From Gautieria morchelliformis (taxonomy: Eukaryota; Basidiomycota; Agaricomycetes; Gomphales; Gomphaceae): a stretch of DNA of 64,000 nucleotides. The translations under genes were made by a program, and so were the position numbers. The notes under the pieces are model-generated. The model saw only the letters and a program-made list of their open reading frames with translations. It did not search any database and was not told the DNA's origin. The stretch lies in assembly GCA_015179125.1 (NCBI GenBank), contig WHVA01000319.1:62001-126000 (forward strand), given 5' to 3'. Positions 2,507-47,705 of this stretch are shown piece by piece; position 1 is the first letter of the stretch; the number at the start of each line of letters is the position of its first letter.

Positions 2507-5500
2507 GTGAACTAACCCCACCACCGGTGGCAAGTCTATGTGGGGGCCAATGTACTGGGCCCCGATCGCAGCTAACTGCCGTTGCAAGGCAGGGTCGTTG
2601 ATTGTGTGCGACAGTGACGCTGTTAGGTACATACTGATTGTGTATTCCTTCACAATGGCCAGGACATTGTGTGTGTTGGGGGTGCCGCGCAATTTCTTGC
2701 ACTTCTTTTTGGGCTTTTCAGCTATGCACTCAGCCCTGTCCGGGTCTTGGAAATTCCAGACAGAGGAGGCAGACTGCCATCCATCAGGGATGTCATCATG
2801 CGCCACATCGGATGGCACGCTCGGTCCCTCCATCGATGTTGGGGTGGGGGCCCATATTTGGGAGGCTAGTCCCGAAGCTGCATGTGCTGGTAATGGTACC
2901 GTCGCATGTGGTGAAGATGGGCCAGCTACTGATTCAGTGGCTTGGTCCTGGTATGGCCTTTTTGAGGCTGCATGTATGTGCTGGAGAGTCCTAAGCTGCT
3001 CCTCCAGCTCTTTTATTTTGACGGGCTCACCGTTGAGCATGTCGTCACAGTCTTTGACCACACATTCTAGATCCTTGACCTCCTTCTTGAGGTCGTGGAT
3101 ATCCCACAAGGGCTCCACTTGCTCATCGTGCATGATGGCCCTGGGGAACCACCCCAGGCCGCATCGATGCCGTTGCCGACATCTTCATCTTTCAGCTTCA
3201 CCTTGCCGGTGTGCCGTGTACACTGCGCAGGTGTTGCAGTCATCCAGGTGGACGATTGCCAGGGCATCCACCCATCCTACGATCATCCAGTGTTCCTGAT
3301 CGACTGGTGCTCCTAGGATGTTGGCGGCCCCTTGCTTTGGGGTGGATGAGCGTGGCTCAGACGTTGACAGATAAATGTCCATCCCATCCTTGGATGGCAT
3401 CATCTTCATTGGGAGATGATGGTGGTGGTGGTTGCTTCTAGGAAGCAATGCGCCTTGGAAAGATCTGAGGTGAAAATTTATCTGCACCATGGCCAGTGCA
3501 TCATGTGGTATGCACGTGCTAGTGACATTTGGGCAGGTCGCGTGGCTTGCAAACTCCCTAGAGCTCTAGATAGTGATCAAGAGCTTTGAGCTCCTTACAG
3601 GATGACATGGGGTCCCCATGTCATGTCGCCTAGGGTCCAGCGGACCTGAGCTCCAGGTCCATTGAGTTTATCCATTGGTGTGCGATAATCCCGTTGACAA
3701 GCCACTCTTCATCGTCATTTGATCTGCAGTTGTGGAAAAACTTGACTTCACGGTGAGGACACAGCTCATCATTGTTAGCCTCATATTGCCATACAAGGCT
3801 TGAGTGGAAAACCAGTGAAATATGGCGGCTTTTCAGCTCATCAGGTAGCGCTAGGGTCACCATCAAGGCTTCATTATGTGCCTCGATCACGCAGTATGGT
3901 CCAATATACCATGGCACAAGTTTTCTGGCACTTCCCTTTGGCAGAGTCAGGTTTTGAGTTGACAGGTAGACGCAGTCGTTGGCTGCATACATGTCGCTTG
4001 CTGTACGTTTCTTGTTCACATGAAATGTTTGCGTCACTCAATGCCTGCATCGTGTGCTGCCATCAGGTTCCATCATGCCTGATGTGTGAATAAGGACACT
4101 CCCCTAAACGGGGTGTCCCTGGCTATGGGCAGGTCTATCCGCAGCATGTAGCCATGGTTCAGCTGAAAGGGTGTGAACCCTGTGGTTGCCCTGATGTTGC
4201 TGTTGAGGGCTACCTTGACCATTGGGCATTTTGCTGCCAAGTCCTTTTGGTCGTCTCTGACTACAGCACGTAGTGTCTGGCCGATCGAGTGGTTTGCGTG
4301 CTCGGTCGCTCCATCCATTTGGGGATGGAAGGCAGTCGACATGAGGAGTTTAGTCCCCATGAGTCGCTGCTGTTCACGCCAGAAGATAGACGTGAACTTC
4401 GAGTCTCTGTCCAAGATGATGGAGTCCGGGACTCCATGGAGTCTGATGACTTCCTTGATGAACAGCCAGGCTACTCCCTTGGCCAACACACTCATTGTTG
4501 TTGGGATGAGGTGTGTCAAGATTGGTTTTTAGGCGTTAATGTCGTGTATTAGTGAACACAGCGAATGCCCAAATAACTTGTGCGAATAGGTATGCCGTTC
4601 GGCGAATAGATGAACCAATGAATGTTCACAAGGTAAGAGGATTGCCCGAACAGGGCTCGCCCTATCTACAGTCGTAGCGAAATAGCCCGTGGCACTTGAT
4701 GATGTAACGTGCAAGGTCTCATGAAAGGGCTGTCTAAGTTTCGACAATCCCTTCGCCGGCGAAGGTGCTCCTTCGGAGCCCTTCGCCAACAGCACAAAAA
4801 ATGGTTCCAAGGCTAAGGTAACGAAGATGAAGTATGAGAACTCACCAGTGATGCCTAAGTCCTCTGCTAGTTGAAGATAGAAGTCCCCAAGAGAAGGCTT
4901 AAGACGATGACCACAGTGAGGTCAAATTTGCACAAGATGAACGACGTATGGGAATATACATGCGAACGTAAACTACTTATATCGAATGCTCGTAAGGTAT
5001 CAGCGAATAGGAAAGAGGCCGTCGTGAGTTAGGGCCGGATAGGGGTGCGCAGGCATGATACTAAGTAGATGGAATAAACATACAATAGAGTGAGGGGAGA
5101 GTGCGAACATGAAACGACGGAGAGTAAAGGGAGCGAAGGCACTTATGGACAAAACCATGTCTTGGGACCCGCATACATGCTACCCTGCACGGGCTCTTCA
5201 TTTACTGGGTTGACCCCACCCACGGCCTATGGAAGGGACGTCCTGCGATCACATTTTGGCCATACGAACACCCAATGGTGTTGGATTAAGAAGATGATGG
5301 GGTTAATGATGAGCCATCATGCCGGGTGAATGGTATCGATCATATTTGATAGCATGCCTGCTGACGAAATGCGTGAGCAGCGAATAGCGGTTCGGAGAAT
5401 GGGGCGAACAGCGGGTAGAGTGGACGTAGAGGGGGAGTGGTTGGTGGGTGCGGCGAACTCTGGCGAAGATGCTAGGGAGTGACGAGGGGGAACATAGAGG

Positions 5501-6065
5501 TAGCGCGGTAGGAGAAATAAACTGGTCATGACATGGACATGCGATGTTAGTCAGTCAATGACTACCATTAGGTAGTCACAGTCATTCGACTTGAGCAGGG
5601 GTCCCATGAATTCGATGGCAATAGACTGCCATGGCCTATCGGGAATTGGCAGGCTATCTAGTAGGCCTTTGGGCCGTTGTGGCCCAGTCTTGTTCGTCTG
5701 ACACTTTGCACACAATGTGCAGAATGACTTGATGTCTGGGTTCATACCCGCCCACCAGTATGACCTTTGAGCATAGTTTGATGTCTTCAGATGGCTGTAG
5801 TGACTGACTATCTGGTGTGCTCGATAGATAATGATTTCGATCAGCCTCCTTCCCCCTTGAAGAACAGATTGGGGGATGGCGATGATGTCTCTCCAGAGCT
5901 GATTCTTTGTCCAAATCAGTCCGTCCCGGATTCCGAATCTCAGGTGTGCGTCCTGGTGCTCCATACTTTTTGAGAACATGGGGTCCTTACAGTATGGGTT
6001 TCTCAGGACCTTAGAAAGGTCTACGCCTTGTTCGACACTCTGGTGCAGTGGTGTGCTGTCATTGC
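2507..6065 (-). mobile_element. Gypsy-A chromovirus copy 2, partial and broken
   Basis: A minus-strand Ty3/gypsy fragment collinear with the copy at 32642-42827. From its 5' side it holds the integrase zinc-binding part (about 5980-5750), the start of the integrase core up to 5534, then after an LTR1 insertion the rest of the core, the integrase C-terminus and a chromodomain-like tail (to about 3600), and the third ORF (about 3470-2507). Gag, protease and reverse transcriptase are absent. It is clearly broken, with several breaks, and looks older than the LTR1 inside it. Confidence 0.85.
4514..5533 (-). repeat. LTR1 solo LTR inside the Gypsy-A integrase
   Basis: A 1020-bp LTR1 in reverse orientation, TGTCAAG to TCATGACA, that splits the integrase core of Gypsy-A copy 2. 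The sequences on its two sides correspond to adjacent sequence in the copy near 35975-36000. A clean 5-bp target duplication is not visible, so small changes at the junction are likely. Confidence 0.8.
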
Positions 6066-39145: not shown

Positions 39146-42100
39146 TCATACCGGACCTAAGCCGGGGGCACTCTGCCTTCTTGTGGCCAGGTTGGCCGCA
39201 TTCAAAGCATGTGGAGTTGCTTTGGCTGCCGCTGGGCCTGTCGTTGGGCCGGCCCGACGTTTTCGTCGGTGGGGCAGGTCGTGGGGACGACCCTGACGCT
39301 TGAGGCTGTTTAGCTTCAGGGGGCGTCCAGCTTGTGCTGGGCGTGAGGGCGGTAGCCGTAGTCCTGTTCCACTTCTTGCGAACAGGCTGGGCCTGGTCAG
39401 GCCCGTTTGTGTCAACGGCTTGCTCCCTGTGAGCCGGGCAGCACTTGCCGTTGCTGCTGCGCTTTCTGCGCGGCGCATCCCCATGTTGTATCGGGATGCC
39501 TCCTCGATCATCCGGGCCGTCTCGAAAGTTGCTCTATTGAGCTGCTCTCGCATTATAGCCCTTTTTGAGGACTCGTTGGCAGCGTTTCGTGCAGCGCCGA
39601 TACGAACCGTCTCCGGAACGTGTACTCGTCTGGCGCTGTATCATACGTGCTGCGTATTTCGTGAGCTCGTTCAGCATCTCCTGAATGGTTTTCATCCCTT
39701 GCATGACCGCGTCGAATTTATTCGATGCGTGATGGTATGTCAGTGTGTGCAGGAACCTCTTTTGAAGGCCTTGCATCACAGATTCCAGCGTCCAGCTGCG
39801 GACCTGGCGATCGAAGCATTCAACGTTTCGAAGGAACCACTCCTGGGCTTCACCGGTGAGGCGAGTGCCCACATAGCCGACCTGCGTGTCAATGCTGGTT
39901 GGCCCTAGGAGGCAATTCATTTTTAGCCATCGTAGGATGGCTGCCACGAAGATTTCAAATTATTCGAGGTCTGATCCCCCTGCATATGGCTCGGGGTGGG
40001 CCAATTTTACGCCGGCCTTCGCTAGCACAGACTTCTCCGGGTCTGTGTCCGCGGCGTCTGCTAACCCACGCGGATCATCCGTGTGATCCCGTCGTACGGC
40101 TCCATTGGTACGACGTTGGCCTGGTCAGGGATTCCCTGGCCTTCCGTTGGGGCCATGGATCGCTCGCGCGGTTGTGACGCTGCGCGGGGCAGGCTGTTAT
40201 ATGCCCTGACGGGCCCCGGGCCCGGGTCGGGCTCGGGCTCGGGCTCGGGAGCATTGTGTGCTCTCGGTTCCGGGGGCGTTTTGTGCCTGGTGTCCTCAGT
40301 TAGTCCCGCGTTGCGGATCCGTAGCCTTCTGTTGTAGGCTGCGCGCGCTTGCCGTGCGTCCTGTTGTCATGACCGGTTTATTTCTCCCACCGCGTTACTT
40401 TCATGTTCCCCCTCGTCACTCCCTAGCATCTTCGTCAGAGTTCGCCGCACCTACCGACCACTCCTCCTCTACATCCACCCTACTCGTCATTCGCCCCATC
40501 TTCCGAACCGCTATTCGCTGCTTGCGCATTTCGCCAACAGGCACGCCATCAAAATATGATCGATACCAGCCACCCGGCATGAGGGTTCATCATTAACCCC
40601 ATCACCTTCTTAATCCAACCCCATTGGGTGTTCGTATGGCTAAGGTGTGTTCGCAGGACGTTCCTTCTATAGGTCGTGTGGGATCAACCCAGTAAACGAA
40701 GAGACCGTGCAGGGCGGCATCTATGCGGGTCCCAAGACATGGTTTTGTCCATAAGTGCTTTCGCCCCCTTTTACTCTCCGTCGTTTCATGCTCGCATTCT
40801 TCCCTCACTCTATTGTATGTTTATCCCATCTCCTTAGTATCATGACTGCGCACCCCTATCCAACCCTGACTTGTGACGGCCTCTTTCCTATTCGCTGATA
40901 CCGTACGAGCATTCGATATAAGTAGTTTACATTCGCATGTATATTCCTCAGTTCAATTATCATACGTCGTCCATCTTGTGCAAACTTGACCTCACTGTGA
41001 TCATCGTCTTAAGCCCTTCCCTGAAGATTTCTATCTTCGACCAGCCAAGGACTTAGGCATCACTGGTGAGTTCTCATACTTCATCTTCGTTACCCTAGCC
41101 TCCGAACTACTCTCTGCGCTGTTGGCGAAGGGACTGTCGAAACTTAGACAGCCCTTCCACAGTATCTTGCGCGTTGCATCGTCGAGTACTGCGAGCTGTT
41201 CCGCTACGACTGTAGACAGGGCGAGCCCTGTTCGGGCAACCCCTTTGTTTCGTGGACATTTATCGGTTCACTTATTCGCCGAATGGCATATCCCTTCGCA
41301 CAAGTTATCCGGGCATTCGCTGTGTTCATTAATACACGATATTAACGCCTAAAAACCAATCTTGACACCTGTATGGCTTGCGTGAGCTGCTCGTCGGGCA
41401 GCTGAGCGGTGTGGCTGTGGGCCCCTGTCTCTTCAGCGTTCTTCGCTAATAGCTCGAGTGCCCGTGTGTGGTGGCGCGCGGGTGCGGCTTCTTTACGCTG
41501 CCAGTGTGCGACTTCGAGCTCTAAGCTCTCGGTCGTCATTTCGGAGTCAGGCTCTGAGGCGACCTGATCCCTAACGATCTGTTCGATCATTTTACGGCTG
41601 TCCGTTGGGGCAGCCGGTTGTTCCTGAGGTTCGTTCCTGAACCTTACATCCTGTTCGACCGGGACGGCTGGCGGCGGCATTCACTTCTTGTCTCGCTCCT
41701 TTCGGCACGGGTCTTCTACGTCGCGACTGCGCGCGTTGGCTGCGGACTGTCGCGAGCTCGGACGAGTTGCGTCGTGTTCCCCACGTGGGTGGAGTGCTTT
41801 CTGGACGTCCTCCAGCGTGGCTGCGTCTTGCAGCCTGACCTCCTCCGCCTGGTGAAGTTCCTTGCCGATTGCCATTAGGGCGGCGGCGGCGTTGTCAAGC
41901 TGCGATGCCAGCTGATCGTGCTTGTGGCACGTCAGCGTACTTCGGTGCAGCGCAGCCTGCACCTGTTTGTTCAGGGCCTCTGGGGTCTCGTGGTCGATGG
42001 CGTGAGCCCTCGAGCTCTTGCGACTAGAGCTCGAGTATTCTGAGTCCTGACCATCATTTGGGGCTCGTCTCTTTTGCCGTCGTCCTCCTTCAGGGACGAT

Positions 42101-42952: not shown

Positions 42953-44187
42953 TGTCAAGATTGGTTTTTAGGTGTTAATATCGTGTATTAGTGAACACAG
43001 CGAATGCCCGAATAACTTGTGTGAATAAGTATGCCGTTCGGCGAATAGGTGAACCAATGAATGTTCACAAGATAAGAGGGTTTGCCTAAACAGGGCTTAC
43101 CCTATCTACAGTCGTAGCGAAATGGCCCGTGGTTCTTGACGATGTAACATGCAAGATCTCACGGAAGAGCTGTCTAAGTCTCGACAATCCCTTCGCCAAC
43201 AGCACAGAAAATGGTTCGAAGGCTAAGGTAACGAAGATGAGATATGGGAACTCACCAGTGATGCCTAAGTCCTCTGCTAGTCGAAGATGGAAATCTCCAA
43301 GAGAAGGCTTAAGACGATGACCACGGCGAGGTCAGAGCTGCACAAGATGAACGATGTATGATAATTGAACTGGGGAATATACATGCAAATGTAAACTACT
43401 TATATCGAATGCTCGTAAGGTATCAGCGAATAGGAAAGAGGCCGTCACAAGTCAGGGTTGGATAGGGGTGCGCAGTCATGATACAACATAGATGAAATAA
43501 ACATACAATAGAATGTGAGAAGAGGGAGAACATGAAACGACGGAGAGTAAAGGTGGCGAAGGCACTTATGGACAAAACCATGTCTTGGGACCCGCATACA
43601 TGCTACCCTGCACGGACTCTTGGTCTACTGGGTTGATTCCACACCACCTATGGAAGAGATGCCCTGCGAACACATTTTGACCATACGAATGCCCAATGGG
43701 GTTGGATTAAGAAGACAATGGGGTTAATGATGAACCATCATGCCGGGTGAATGGTATCGATCGTATTTGATGGTGTGCCTGCTGGCGAATGATGCGAGCA
43801 GCGAATAGCTGTTCAGCGAAATGCAAGGGAGGGCGAACAGAGGTGACATAGGGGAGGAGAGGTGGAGGTGGAGGGCGAAGCCCAGCGAACACTGAGGAGG
43901 AGTAGCGAAAGGGGAAATGGGGATACCAAGGTGCAGGAAATACACAGGTCAACTATCAGAACACCATCGGAAGAGGGTCGAGCAGAGGAGGTGGTAGACC
44001 CAGTGATGACTGCCAAGTTAGTCCAAAGCCGTCGGTCGTGCGTTTAATGGCGTGGCGATGGTAATTGGCGCGAATCAGCGAGTGTCGGTTGCCGAATCAT
44101 GACATTGGCGATCGGAACAAACATGAAAATGAGGTGAGAAATGGCAGGACAGAGCACCTGAGTATGAGGAATAAACGCGTCATGACA
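42953..44187 (-). repeat. LTR1 long subtype inside Gypsy-B copy 2
   Basis: 1235 bp in reverse orientation, TGTCAAGATTGG to GTCATGACA, with the long-subtype extension at 43950-44187. It separates two parts of the RNase H domain. Some pol sequence at the junction appears to be lost, and a target duplication is not visible. Confidence 0.8.
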
Positions 44188-44480
44188 GACAGGTCCCTTG
44201 GTCCGAACACCTGTCAGGGTTCAATTACATCATTCGCTACCGAGCTGGGTGACTTGGCACAAAGCCGGATGCATTGACCCGTCGGGGCGACGTGTACCCT
44301 AAAGGGGGGGATGGTGCTTACATATTGGCGAATCCCCACAGCTTCCAGTCGATGTTTAAAACCGGGCAAGTCATTCGTGCCATCATCCTTGACTCTGCAT
44401 CACTGTTAACATCCATCCAACAGGGCCAGTTGACTGATCCCTTGTCCTCAGCCCACATCACCCGTCTTCAAGCGTGGGGG

Positions 44481-44758: not shown

Positions 44759-45860
44759 TTAGCAAGTAATACACTGCACTGCATGAAATCGGCCTGCACG
44801 TTCCATGTGTGGGTCATTTCGCTGTTGTAGTCGCTTGTTCAGCCTGGAATTGTGCCGCTTGATCTGCTGCACAAAGTCCAAGACTCCCCGGAGCAAGTGG
44901 TTGCTCCGCTCCAGCTGCTCGTTTTGACGAATCAGCAAGTCCTTGACCATCCAAGAAACCTCGGCTCCCAAAAACCCATCGGGTTTTAACCCTTTTAACC
45001 CTGCTCCCAACGGCCCCGCATGGATGTCTACCGTTGGTATGGCTCCTGACGGCTTGACTGGAGACATCTTGGCCTTCTTCGGCCCCGGTCCCTCAGTCGC
45101 ATCCTCATCCTTTCGTTTCTGTTTCCCGTCCAGGAAACTGCACCAGACCTTTTGGTCCACGCATTGCTGGCATGCGGTTTTTCTCCTGCGTAGACACCAG
45201 GTTTGGCGACACCTGCACGCATCGCAAGGTTCACGCTGAAAAATAAACATAAGTTGTAGCCAAACTGACCCAAGGACTCACCTCTTCATCTGACTCCTCC
45301 TTGTCTGACTCCTCGGTCATCTTCCTCTTTTTCGAGCCCGAGGATTTCGGCTTCTCTTTAGCCGCACGTCTTTCAGCTGCATGTTTCATGGCCAGAATCC
45401 GAGCCTGCAGGGTTGCCGAATCCACAATAATTGGCTCGGGCGACGGGATGTGGTAGTTCTGATCCACGTCGGCTTGTTGAATCGATTCAGCTTTAAGTAT
45501 ATCCAAAAGCCACTTTTGCTCACATTTGAACACCAGTCCCATCGCTTTCCGAGCCTCGTCAGCTTTCACCTTCAAGGCCCGCTTCTCCACCTCCCGCGCT
45601 TCTTTGGCTTTCCAAGCCTCTTCAGCTTTCTTCACTTCTTCCGCTACCCGTGCAGCTTCGGCCTGCGTCTCCTGCTCCTTCCGTTTCACCTCGGCTTTTT
45701 CGGCATCCTCCCGCCGCTTCTTCTCTGCAGCTTCTTTGCGCTCCTGTGCAAGTCACCGTTTTTCTTGCAATTCCTTCATCTGCTCCGCAGCTTCGCACTC
45801 AGCTTGCATGAGCTCAGCATCAACCTCGTCAACCTTGCCAATGGAGATTTCACGTGCATC
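44759..45860 (-). pseudogene. Antisense gene of Gypsy-B copy 2 with Zn2Cys6-like cluster
   Basis: On the strand opposite to the element's pol. The N-terminal part (45860-45285) is highly charged and probably coiled-coil (KRKEQETQAEAARVAEEVKK), followed by a basic, then acidic stretch (SGSKKRKMTEESDKEESDEE). A 45-bp GT-AG intron-like gap follows. The next part begins with a six-cysteine block at 45226-45140 with spacing C-x2-C-x6-C-x7-C-x2-C-x6-C, the exact pattern of the fungal Zn(II)2Cys6 binuclear cluster. A basic linker (GKQKRKDEDATEGPGPKKAK) and a heptad-like end (LIRQNEQLERSNHLLRGVLD) complete it. It is better preserved than the copy at 31.0-32.5 kb. A DNA-binding role is inferred. Confidence 0.6.
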
Positions 45861-46000
45861 TGACATGATCTGTGATTTCTGATGATGATGGGAGAAGACA
45901 AGAAGCAGAACGTGAAACAAAGCTTATGTAACTTCCCTGACCTGGCAATCTCTGGGATCTCGCTTATGGCCTCATGGGTTCGGCCATAAGGGGGAGGTAC

Positions 46001-46459
46001 TGTTATGACCCGTTCCCGAATCCAGACCGAAGCTCAGCTTCAGCTCTCATTCGGGAACCTCGGGTTATTCTCAGCTTCCTTCAGGTTTCCCTTCGCACTT
46101 CCCATCACCCCTGATTTCCTTTTCTAGTTAGTTCCCCATTTGCCTGACCCTTGTTTCCCCTGACCGTTGATCCAATCATGTTCTCTTCACGACCCTGCAT
46201 GCTACTTTACTATATAGAGCTCCAGTCCATGTACAGTGGCTCCCCAGTTGAGATATCGAATTAGCTTATGATACTTGAGACCCTCTGCTTGATATCGAAA
46301 CCCACATCTCAGCTTATAGCCGAGACCTCTCCCGAAATTAGGGCGGAACATAGAGTGGGCGCAACCCAAGAGGTTGAAGCCAAGCCCTCTGACCCGAGAC
46401 CCGAGACCCGAGTTCGGCTTCGGTATAGCCGAACTACAGTACAAACACAAACCTTAACA
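46001..46459 (+). repeat. LTR4, 3' LTR of Gypsy-B copy 2
   Basis: 459 bp, TGTTATGACCCG to CCTTAACA, right after the purine tract AAGGGGGAGG. The same LTR (inverted, with an LTR3 inside) is at 56989-57850. It is joined directly to a TPR coding sequence, so the element inserted into a TPR gene. Confidence 0.85.
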
Positions 46460-47029
46460 GCCATCGGCAGCCTTGCTACAACCTATCGTAGTCTGGGACA
46501 GTGGAAGGATGCTCAGGAGCTGCAGATTAAAGTCATGGAGACAAGCAAGAGGGTCCTTGGTGAGGAGCACCCTCACACACTGACTGCCATGAACAACCTT
46601 GCTACAACCTATCAGAGTCTGGGCCAGTGGATGGATGGTCAAGAGCTGTATGTGAAGGTCATGGAGGCAAGCAAGAGGGTCCTTGGTGAGGAGCACCCTC
46701 ACACACTGACTGCCATGGACAACCTTGCTACAACCTATCAGAGTCTGGGCCAGTGGATGGATGGTCAAGAGCTGTATGTGAAGGTCATGGAGGCAAGCAA
46801 GAGGGTCCTTGGTGAGGAGCACCCTCACACACTGACTGCCATGGACAACCTTGCTACAACCTATCAGAGTCTGGGCCAGTGGATGGATGGTCAAGAGCTG
46901 TATGTGAAGGTCATGGAGGGAAGCAAGAGGGTCCTTGGTGAGGAGCATCCTGACACACTGACTACCATGGGCAACCTTGCTGCAACCTATCAGAGTCTGG
47001 GCCTGTGGAAGGATGCTCAGGACCTGGAG
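46460..47029 (+). pseudogene. TPR-array gene fragment, left arm (about 5 repeats)
   Basis: Four and a half 42-residue TPR units of the kinesin-light-chain/NLR type (consensus SKRVLGEEHP.TLTAM.NLA.TYQSLGQW.D.QEL). In fungi such arrays usually form the C-terminal sensor region of NB-ARC or NACHT proteins, but no nucleotide-binding domain is present here. The three central units are almost identical at the DNA level (126-bp period). The 5' side is cut by LTR4; the open frame actually begins inside the LTR at 46268, a chimeric frame. At 47030 the TPR joins unrelated sequence in mid-repeat, so the gene is truncated at both ends. Confidence 0.75.
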
Positions 47030-47705
47030 CAAGTGTGATAACATTATAAAAGATAAGTGCAAAACGCTATAAGAAACCCTTGTCAAAGTTATATTCTAAA
47101 AAAGAAAGATTGACAATTGGATCTTGTGAGTGTAGGGGAACAACTGAGACCCTATGGGCTCACATCCAGTCCAGAGCAGCTGGGCCAGAGTTGGTAGTAT
47201 AAGGGGAAGTTAGGTCAGCATCCTCTGCCCAAGCATCATTCATTGGGGAAAGGAGTGTTAGACAGCGGTTGGATGCTGTTACGACACAATCCTTCAGAGG
47301 GGGGTTGGCCGAGCTTGGGGACAAGACCTGAGGCAAGGTCTGAGGTTATAGAATTAGGTTCAGAGAGGGAGGTCAGTGTAAGAGCCTAGCCTCTGGCTGG
47401 TTATTTACCAGTGATACCTCTAGCTGTCCCTCCGAGGCTTATGAATGCCATACCCTAGCCTTGTGATTATAAACCCAAGCCCAAGCTCATGGGAGGATGT
47501 TCAGGATGTTCAGATTGACAGTAATGTACATTCTTCTAGGATATATTAGATTAGTCTTCTGTTACGCATACGACATGTAAAAGTTTGTGTTCCTTTGCAT
47601 ATGCTTTACCCTGTTTTCCTCCCATGTGACATTGTGAGACAATGCTTACTCTTTGTTTCATGGGATATCCTTTGAGACAATTGTTACTAAGTATTTGTGT
47701 CATTG
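47030..47705. other. Left arm of inverted duplication, non-coding
   Basis: 47030-47105 matches the reverse complement of 58890-58955; 47107-47560 that of 57851-58275; 47560-47705 that of 56820-56988. I see no gene. Compared with the right arm it lacks about 590 bp (58277-58866) and an LTR4. Confidence 0.75.

Follow-up and report, generated by a model that had tools for sequence, protein, structure and literature searches.

A spliced antisense gene with a Zn(II)2Cys6-type cysteine cluster in Ty3/gypsy elements of Gautieria morchelliformis

Ty3/gypsy elements of Gautieria morchelliformis carry a spliced gene, antisense to gag-pol and placed between the end of pol and the 3′ LTR, which bears the codon signature of selection and encodes a cysteine cluster of the Zn(II)2Cys6 type; genes of like build are present in more than one basidiomycete gypsy lineage. 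The window, the whole stretch of 64,000 nucleotides that was analysed, holds a dead copy of this accessory gene, in which exon 1 contains a stop codon and exon 2 is shortened. From the sequence comparisons described below, we think it reasonably probable that the gene encodes an element-borne regulator, likely DNA-binding, which would be made from an antisense LTR transcript and would act on the element's own transcription.

The following features of the gene were located in the window:
45282..45866, minus strand: exon 1 of the antisense gene, with its ATG at 45866, from the sequence and third-position divergence among 16 copies
45236..45281, minus strand: phase-0 GT-AG intron of 46 bp, from the sequence, common to other copies
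44826..45235, minus strand: exon 2 of the antisense gene, its 3′ part lost, from the sequence and homology to other copies
45140..45226, minus strand: six-cysteine cluster, from a pattern search, conserved cysteines and a profile match to host Zn(II)2Cys6 domains
45068..45127, minus strand: basic linker (GKQKRK...PKKAK), nuclear-signal-like by eye, from the sequence and inference
44819..44968, minus strand: long helix 3′ of the linker, a coiled-coil candidate, from an AlphaFold2 single-sequence model

A first-pass annotation of this DNA had reported an exact six-cysteine spacing on the minus strand. The pattern C-x2-C-x6-C-x7-C-x2-C-x6-C was indeed found at 45140-45226, as the sole match in the six frames of the window, and the mean number of matches in 60 dinucleotide shuffles of the window was 0.0. 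The gene-like region proposed around the cluster was upheld as an antisense gene, but consists of two exons, at about 45866-45282 and from 45235 onward, separated by an intron at 45281-45236. Exon 1 encodes a charged helical region followed by a basic/acidic end, and in the window is broken by an in-frame TGA at 45755-45753. Exon 2 retains about 136 of about 231 codons; homology to other copies stops near 44826, and the frame continues through unrelated sequence to a stop at 44759. The basic linker described earlier was seen after the cluster, whereas the heptad-like end is weak in the window copy, its pattern being equalled by 153 of 5000 shuffles (192 for L011 and 286 for L030, two other copies). 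In an AlphaFold2 model of the window exon 2, made from the single sequence, residues 90-139 form a helix, 33 model residues have a pLDDT of at least 90, and block means of pLDDT over residues 101-140 are 89-97. The cluster was not folded in this single-sequence model, and a Foldseek search with it gave no match at E≤0.001.

Searches of the same 122-Mb genome gave at least 151 matches to exon 2 and at least 153 to a query from sub-family B, the two lists overlapping. The layout of the copies was examined at 20 loci of about 9 kb. In complete copies the integrase lies on the opposite strand, convergent with the gene, an LTR lies upstream of the gene, and conservation starts at the LTR outer edge wherever the LTR is whole. 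The same antisense region is thus found in complete copies elsewhere in the genome, as expected from the earlier claim of an antisense gene inside a gypsy element. The copies fall into two sub-families, A and B, which share about 38% identity in the antisense protein and 84% in the integrase, and the two B loci have the same layout as A. Among the matches listed, 61 of 79 A/B integrase matches (75-100% identity) have an antisense gene match within 2.5 kb of the pol match; a same-strand gene match was seen beside none of these 79, and for 18 no gene match is listed. This count is a lower bound, covering all 79 integrase rows at 75-100% and part of the cluster-gene rows. The gene-match rows outside the placement counts add, by eye, no antisense match to the rows counted as having none.

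With two LTRs, a gag CCHC knuckle and an RNaseH-integrase region, the carrier is a Ty3/gypsy element. One copy, C150, has the same LTR at both ends (92.9% identical over 449 bp) and a gag ORF in which a CCHC knuckle was seen by eye; traced in two pieces to its 5′ LTR, it measures about 8.1 kb edge to edge. The integrase region of L031 matched PF24626 above its cut-off and PF00665 at 28.6 bits, against a cut-off of 32.6 bits. A chromodomain-like tail was seen by eye in L019, L030 and L031, and PF00385 was not reported for L031 at E≤10.

Around the gene, the window contains the following:
46001..46459, plus strand: LTR (the 3′ LTR in the pol sense), 459 bp, TGTTATGACC...CCTTAACA, from edge conservation among copies, with exact placement
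45990..46000, plus strand: polypurine tract GGGGGAGGTAC, just inside the 3′ LTR, from the sequence
46211..46216, minus strand: TATATA within the LTR, a candidate antisense core promoter about 350 bases upstream of the antisense ATG
about 44190..44470, plus strand: pol fragment of a different, abundant gypsy family, from 93-95% identical matches elsewhere

The polypurine tract, whose complement is present in 10 of 12 copies searched, and the orientation of the LTR indicate that the sense strand of the element is the plus strand. The first-pass annotation had placed the gene between a pol remnant and the 3′ LTR, and its placement beside the LTR holds. The remnant at 44190-44470 was rejected as part of the gene's own element, since matches of 93-95% identity at 39 or more places besides the window's own mark it as belonging to another gypsy family. 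Two reverse-transcriptase ORFs and a gag ORF that were checked in the window lie on the minus strand, the gene's own, and are ORFs of other elements. As these ORFs are on the minus strand and the pol remnant is foreign, the antisense status of the gene rests on the LTR, the polypurine tract and the complete copies elsewhere. The earlier picture was right, though the window by itself could not have shown the antisense layout. An open tetratricopeptide-repeat frame (46265-47038, plus strand) crosses the outer edge of the LTR, and many further matching tetratricopeptide-repeat units lie at 59.1-61.0 kb of the window. A repeat of about 1 kb is also present in several copies on both strands, at 482-1481, 4514-5533, 40365-41367, 42953-43951 and other places.

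Codon comparisons between copies indicate that purifying selection acts on the antisense protein. Divergence at codon positions 1, 2 and 3 was 0.135, 0.132 and 0.333 over the first 405 bases of exon 2 (20 copies) and 0.170, 0.148 and 0.313 in exon 1 (16 copies), with a weaker pattern in the second part of exon 2 (0.159, 0.211 and 0.282; 17 copies); the exon 2 counts leave out L013, L026 and the B rows. The intron (0.20, 0.25 and 0.21) and the leader (0.14, 0.14 and 0.16) are nearly flat, with little codon pattern. Across 24 rows (22 A and 2 B), the median dN/dS of the gene was 0.194 for the 231 A-A pairs (dS about 0.8) and 0.297 for the 44 A-B pairs, and the only B-B pair gave 0.108; the copies were drawn from the top of similarity-ranked lists, a choice that can lower dN/dS. 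Of the three findings that the first-pass annotation had offered as grounds against its reading, two, ratios near neutrality and six cysteines that vary between copies, were not found. Of 23 A/B copies, 19 retain the full set of six cysteines and the other four have each lost one, the interrupted 24th row, L026, being left out of this count.

The integrase gave a dN/dS of 0.342 within A (dS 0.265) and 0.125 between A and B (dS about 0.7), calculated from the 169 of 231 A-A and 38 of 44 A-B pairs with 60 shared codons. The value within A is above that of the antisense gene, indicating that decay of copies touches all genes. Integrase dN is equal within A (0.087) and between A and B (0.085), which suggests that most of the amino-acid divergence of the integrase is decay after insertion. 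At synonymous sites the antisense gene has diverged about three times as far as the integrase in A-A comparisons, and more than twice as far in A-B comparisons. An exchange of six-cysteine modules between pol lineages had been considered for the contrast of 38% and 84% identity and was rejected, as a difference in rate suffices, dS being higher in the gene. A donor could be recognised in 21 rows; in 15 of these exon 2 stays open for at least 200 codons, and in only 2 are the 200 exon 1 codons before the donor free of stops. By eye and among the matches listed, stops in decayed copies appear mostly to be TGA, as CpG decay of CGA would yield.

Zn(II)2Cys6 domains follow the consensus range C-x2-C-x6-C-x5-12-C-x2-C-x6-8-C, and their usual function is sequence-specific DNA binding. 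The spacing of the window copy, and of the 19 of 23 A/B copies with all six cysteines, falls within this range, and the cluster of sub-families A and B probably belongs to this domain. PF00172 was the only Pfam family matched at E≤10 in all eight of the other A/B exon 2 copies scanned, at 7.5-18.3 bits; the curated cut-off of 21 bits was reached by none of the A/B copies scanned. The window copy gave no PF00172 match at E≤0.1, its only Pfam match being HSA, below its cut-off. None of the 17 places listed by a genome-wide PF00172 search is an element copy. A profile of the element cluster, built from 14 of the 23 copies, was aligned with a PF00172 profile of the host, built from 8 of 11 domains fetched from those 17 places, giving an hhalign score of 38.4 and a probability of 96.0. 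In shuffles that left the cysteine spacing unchanged, the mean score was 18.1 and the maximum 30.1, and 0 of 60 shuffles reached 38.4, indicating that the similarity to host Zn(II)2Cys6 domains exceeds the cysteine spacing. In a search of the PDB with the element profile, only three sequences were matched at E≤1, all of them Zn(II)2Cys6 proteins (CBF3 subunit B, and LEU3 twice); these matches are weak, with a best E of 0.14, and each of the two alignments shown spans about half of the cluster. The Gal4-type membership suggested by the first-pass annotation, and the PF00172 match it had looked to, were therefore borne out in part: the host-domain profile agrees and PF00172 is the sole family in the other copies, but every score is below 21 bits and the window copy has none. 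The order of cluster, basic linker and helix is that of the Zn(II)2Cys6 DNA-binding class.

Protein-database searches gave six matches, all to hypothetical proteins of Gautieria morchelliformis (Agaricomycetes, Gomphales). One of the searches scored only the 7994 candidates sharing most words, and a query with exon 2 alone, for which full-length spliced relatives were too long to qualify, gave no match. No relative of the antisense protein was found in the viral contigs scanned. By eye, the annotated protein P0002 reads as spliced at the same intron and has a cluster without one cysteine, and P0003 and P0004 are without the middle of the cluster; Pfam gave nothing for P0002 and PF00172 at 7.6-7.8 bits for P0003 and P0004. 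Some fungal proteins now annotated as hypothetical, P0002 among them, may on this reading be retroelement genes.

The intron is at the same place in 22 of 24 A/B rows, the two without it, L013 and L026, being rearranged there; 21 of the 22 have a GT donor, 21 an AG acceptor and 20 both. As the intron is antisense to the genomic RNA, it would survive retrotransposition, which fits its wide presence. CGG-N2-CGG repeats were counted 19 times in 1165 intron bases (L013 and L026 left out) versus 9 times in 27060 exon bases. They occur in the introns of 14 of 22 copies, and 0 of 2000 mononucleotide shuffles gave as high a count, the copies not being independent. Tandem TCGGG-like repeats are seen in introns of both A and B copies, for example L011, L016 and L030. 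CGG is the usual half-site of the Zn(II)2Cys6 class, making self-regulation a natural guess. The intron repeat may be a candidate binding site, or it may be a simple pentamer repeat or a splicing signal. In the LTR, the TATATA is kept in 10 of 12 copies searched, and in the two exceptions, L014 and L018, the portion in common with the window copy does not extend as far as the hexamer. The TATATA is a candidate antisense promoter; it is palindromic and could be used by either strand.

The next integrase relatives, at 68-71% identity, form family C, which has near-identical copies and open pol frames of up to 1249 codons and is recently active. Its elements have a similarly built antisense ORF in the corresponding position relative to pol and the 3′ LTR. 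In L043 a GT-AG intron of 46 bp separates exons of 69 and 295 codons, the latter bearing the cluster C-x2-C-x6-C-x15-C-x2-C-x6-C. At least 139 matches were found; the best 17 of these are 97-100% identical over the whole exon, with the 295-codon frame open, and numerous copies keep an open frame, down to about 81% identity. An antisense match accompanies 38 of the 71 integrase matches listed, 35 of the 38 standing 120-151 bp from the pol match; none is on the same strand and none is listed for 33, a lower bound drawn from the 71 integrase rows and part of the 139 or more gene matches. The dN/dS was 0.189 (91 pairs) in a sample of L043 and 13 further copies, all 14 picked for open frames, which can lower dN/dS, and the looser cluster pattern is intact in 13 of the 14. 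The heptad pattern of the family C helix is strong (0 of 5000 shuffles as good) and exceeds that of the window copy, L011 and L030. The 15-residue middle loop places the cluster outside the Zn(II)2Cys6 spacing range, the protein has no Pfam match, and the cluster profile gave no clear match to host Zn(II)2Cys6 domains. Profile similarity between family C and A/B is weak (probability 10.9), and a search of the PDB with the family C profile gave one unrelated chain, a hemoglobin linker, at E 0.59. Homology of the A/B and family C genes, and membership of family C in the Zn(II)2Cys6 class, are on these comparisons unproven.

In the model that we favour, the gene, which complete elements carry opposite the gag-pol strand, after the end of pol and before the 3′ LTR, would most likely be driven by an antisense promoter within that LTR and its transcript then spliced. 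The predicted product is a nuclear protein of about 430 residues, with a charged helix, a putatively zinc-binding Zn(II)2Cys6 cluster, a basic linker, a helix and an acidic tail, that would most likely bind DNA as a dimer through CGG triplets. Its target would be the element's own transcription, at the LTR or at the gene itself, as for HBZ in HTLV-1; the first-pass annotation had likewise thought of the LTR or of host genes, either of which such a protein could regulate. The intron, antisense to the genomic RNA, would stay in place through each round of retrotransposition.

The main alternative to a transcriptional regulator accepts a real, selected accessory gene and assigns the cluster to contact with protein or RNA, for anti-silencing, for escorting integrase or Gag, or for steering integration. 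The protein diverges far faster than the integrase between A and B (38% versus 84% identity), which would suit conflict with the host, the cluster scores below the PF00172 cut-off and that of family C is looser; against this, the cluster resembles host domains in more than its cysteine spacing, as the profile match shows, and the order of cluster, linker and helix is that of the DNA-binding class. We regard such a contact role as unlikely, though worth keeping in mind. A functionless passenger, descended from a host Zn(II)2Cys6 gene captured once, would explain why many copies, that of the window included, have decayed. It is difficult to reconcile with the third-position divergence of both exons, a dN/dS of 0.19 at a dS of about 0.8, the same arrangement in sub-families with an integrase dS of about 0.7, or the many family C frames open down to about 81% identity, and we give it very little weight.

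The sheer number of matches might instead point to a host multigene family into which gypsy elements had inserted by chance. Among the matches listed, however, antisense placement is constant, in 61 of 79 for A/B and 38 of 71 for family C (35 at 120-151 bp), and conservation begins at the LTR outer edge in copies with a whole LTR, so that this origin appears highly improbable. Least credible of all is a chance cysteine spacing in a non-coding antisense frame. The window copy, without a PF00172 match at E≤0.1, might have been read in that way, but matches averaged 0.0 in the 60 shuffles, and a chance motif is ruled out by the codon pattern and by conservation of the cysteines in other copies.

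Taking the regulator reading further, several fungal gypsy lineages may share a spliced antisense regulator of Gal4 type that reads CGG repeats in its own intron and LTR, balances gag-pol against antisense transcription as a fungal counterpart of HBZ, and evolves fast through conflict with host silencing or with host Zn(II)2Cys6 networks; this is a tentative extension, on which we would not insist. Because the domain class has a well-understood usual function, and the gene stands at well over 100 places with selection on it that can be measured, the idea that the antisense genes of retroelements serve as regulators can be put to a direct test.

Plants and Botrytis are already known to have antisense genes at this position, between pol and the 3′ LTR. 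Among the titles of the best-ranked open-licence papers, none concerns an LTR element carrying a Zn(II)2Cys6 gene in antisense. In 2011, Zhao et al. reportedly described brtn, which Boty-like gypsy elements of Botrytis cinerea carry as an additional antisense gene. A mention of brtn also appears in PMC8365987, and a passage of PMC4227169 gives the gag-pol of its element a CHROMO domain. The Gautieria gene is like brtn, as so described, in being an additional antisense gene of a fungal gypsy element.

Additional antisense ORFs between pol and the 3′ LTR are described for the plant elements Retand (TRP28), Grande (gene23), RIRE2 and PvRetro13, with a DNA-binding role predicted for that of Retand, in passages of PMC11963269 and PMC7264820, where the roles of these ORFs are called unknown. 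The relevant passage of the 2020 review finds the plant proteins to be without clear similarity to database proteins (PMC7264820), and the 2025 paper, in its account of TRP28 (PF04195), gives it as apparently confined to flowering plants (PMC11963269). The Gautieria gene shares the place and orientation of these ORFs, lying between the end of pol and the 3′ LTR in the fractions of listed A/B and family C matches given above, and like them is kept in most copies; unlike them, it bears a Zn(II)2Cys6-type cluster and is carried by a fungal gypsy element.

HBZ of HTLV-1, a well-studied instance of this layout, is described in part of PMC10186651: it is an antisense gene with spliced forms, expressed from the 3′ LTR, whose product is a nuclear bZIP protein that reduces viral expression driven by the 5′ LTR. 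Its likeness to the Gautieria gene is in layout only, HBZ being a retroviral bZIP protein, and homology is not claimed. With fungal Zn(II)2Cys6 transcription factors of the Gal4, Leu3 and Cep3 type (PF00172), the A/B protein shares the six-cysteine spacing, the basic linker, the helix and the profile match; it differs from them in that the cluster lies mid-protein after a long charged helix, the gene is antisense in a retroelement, and the domain scores below the Pfam cut-off.
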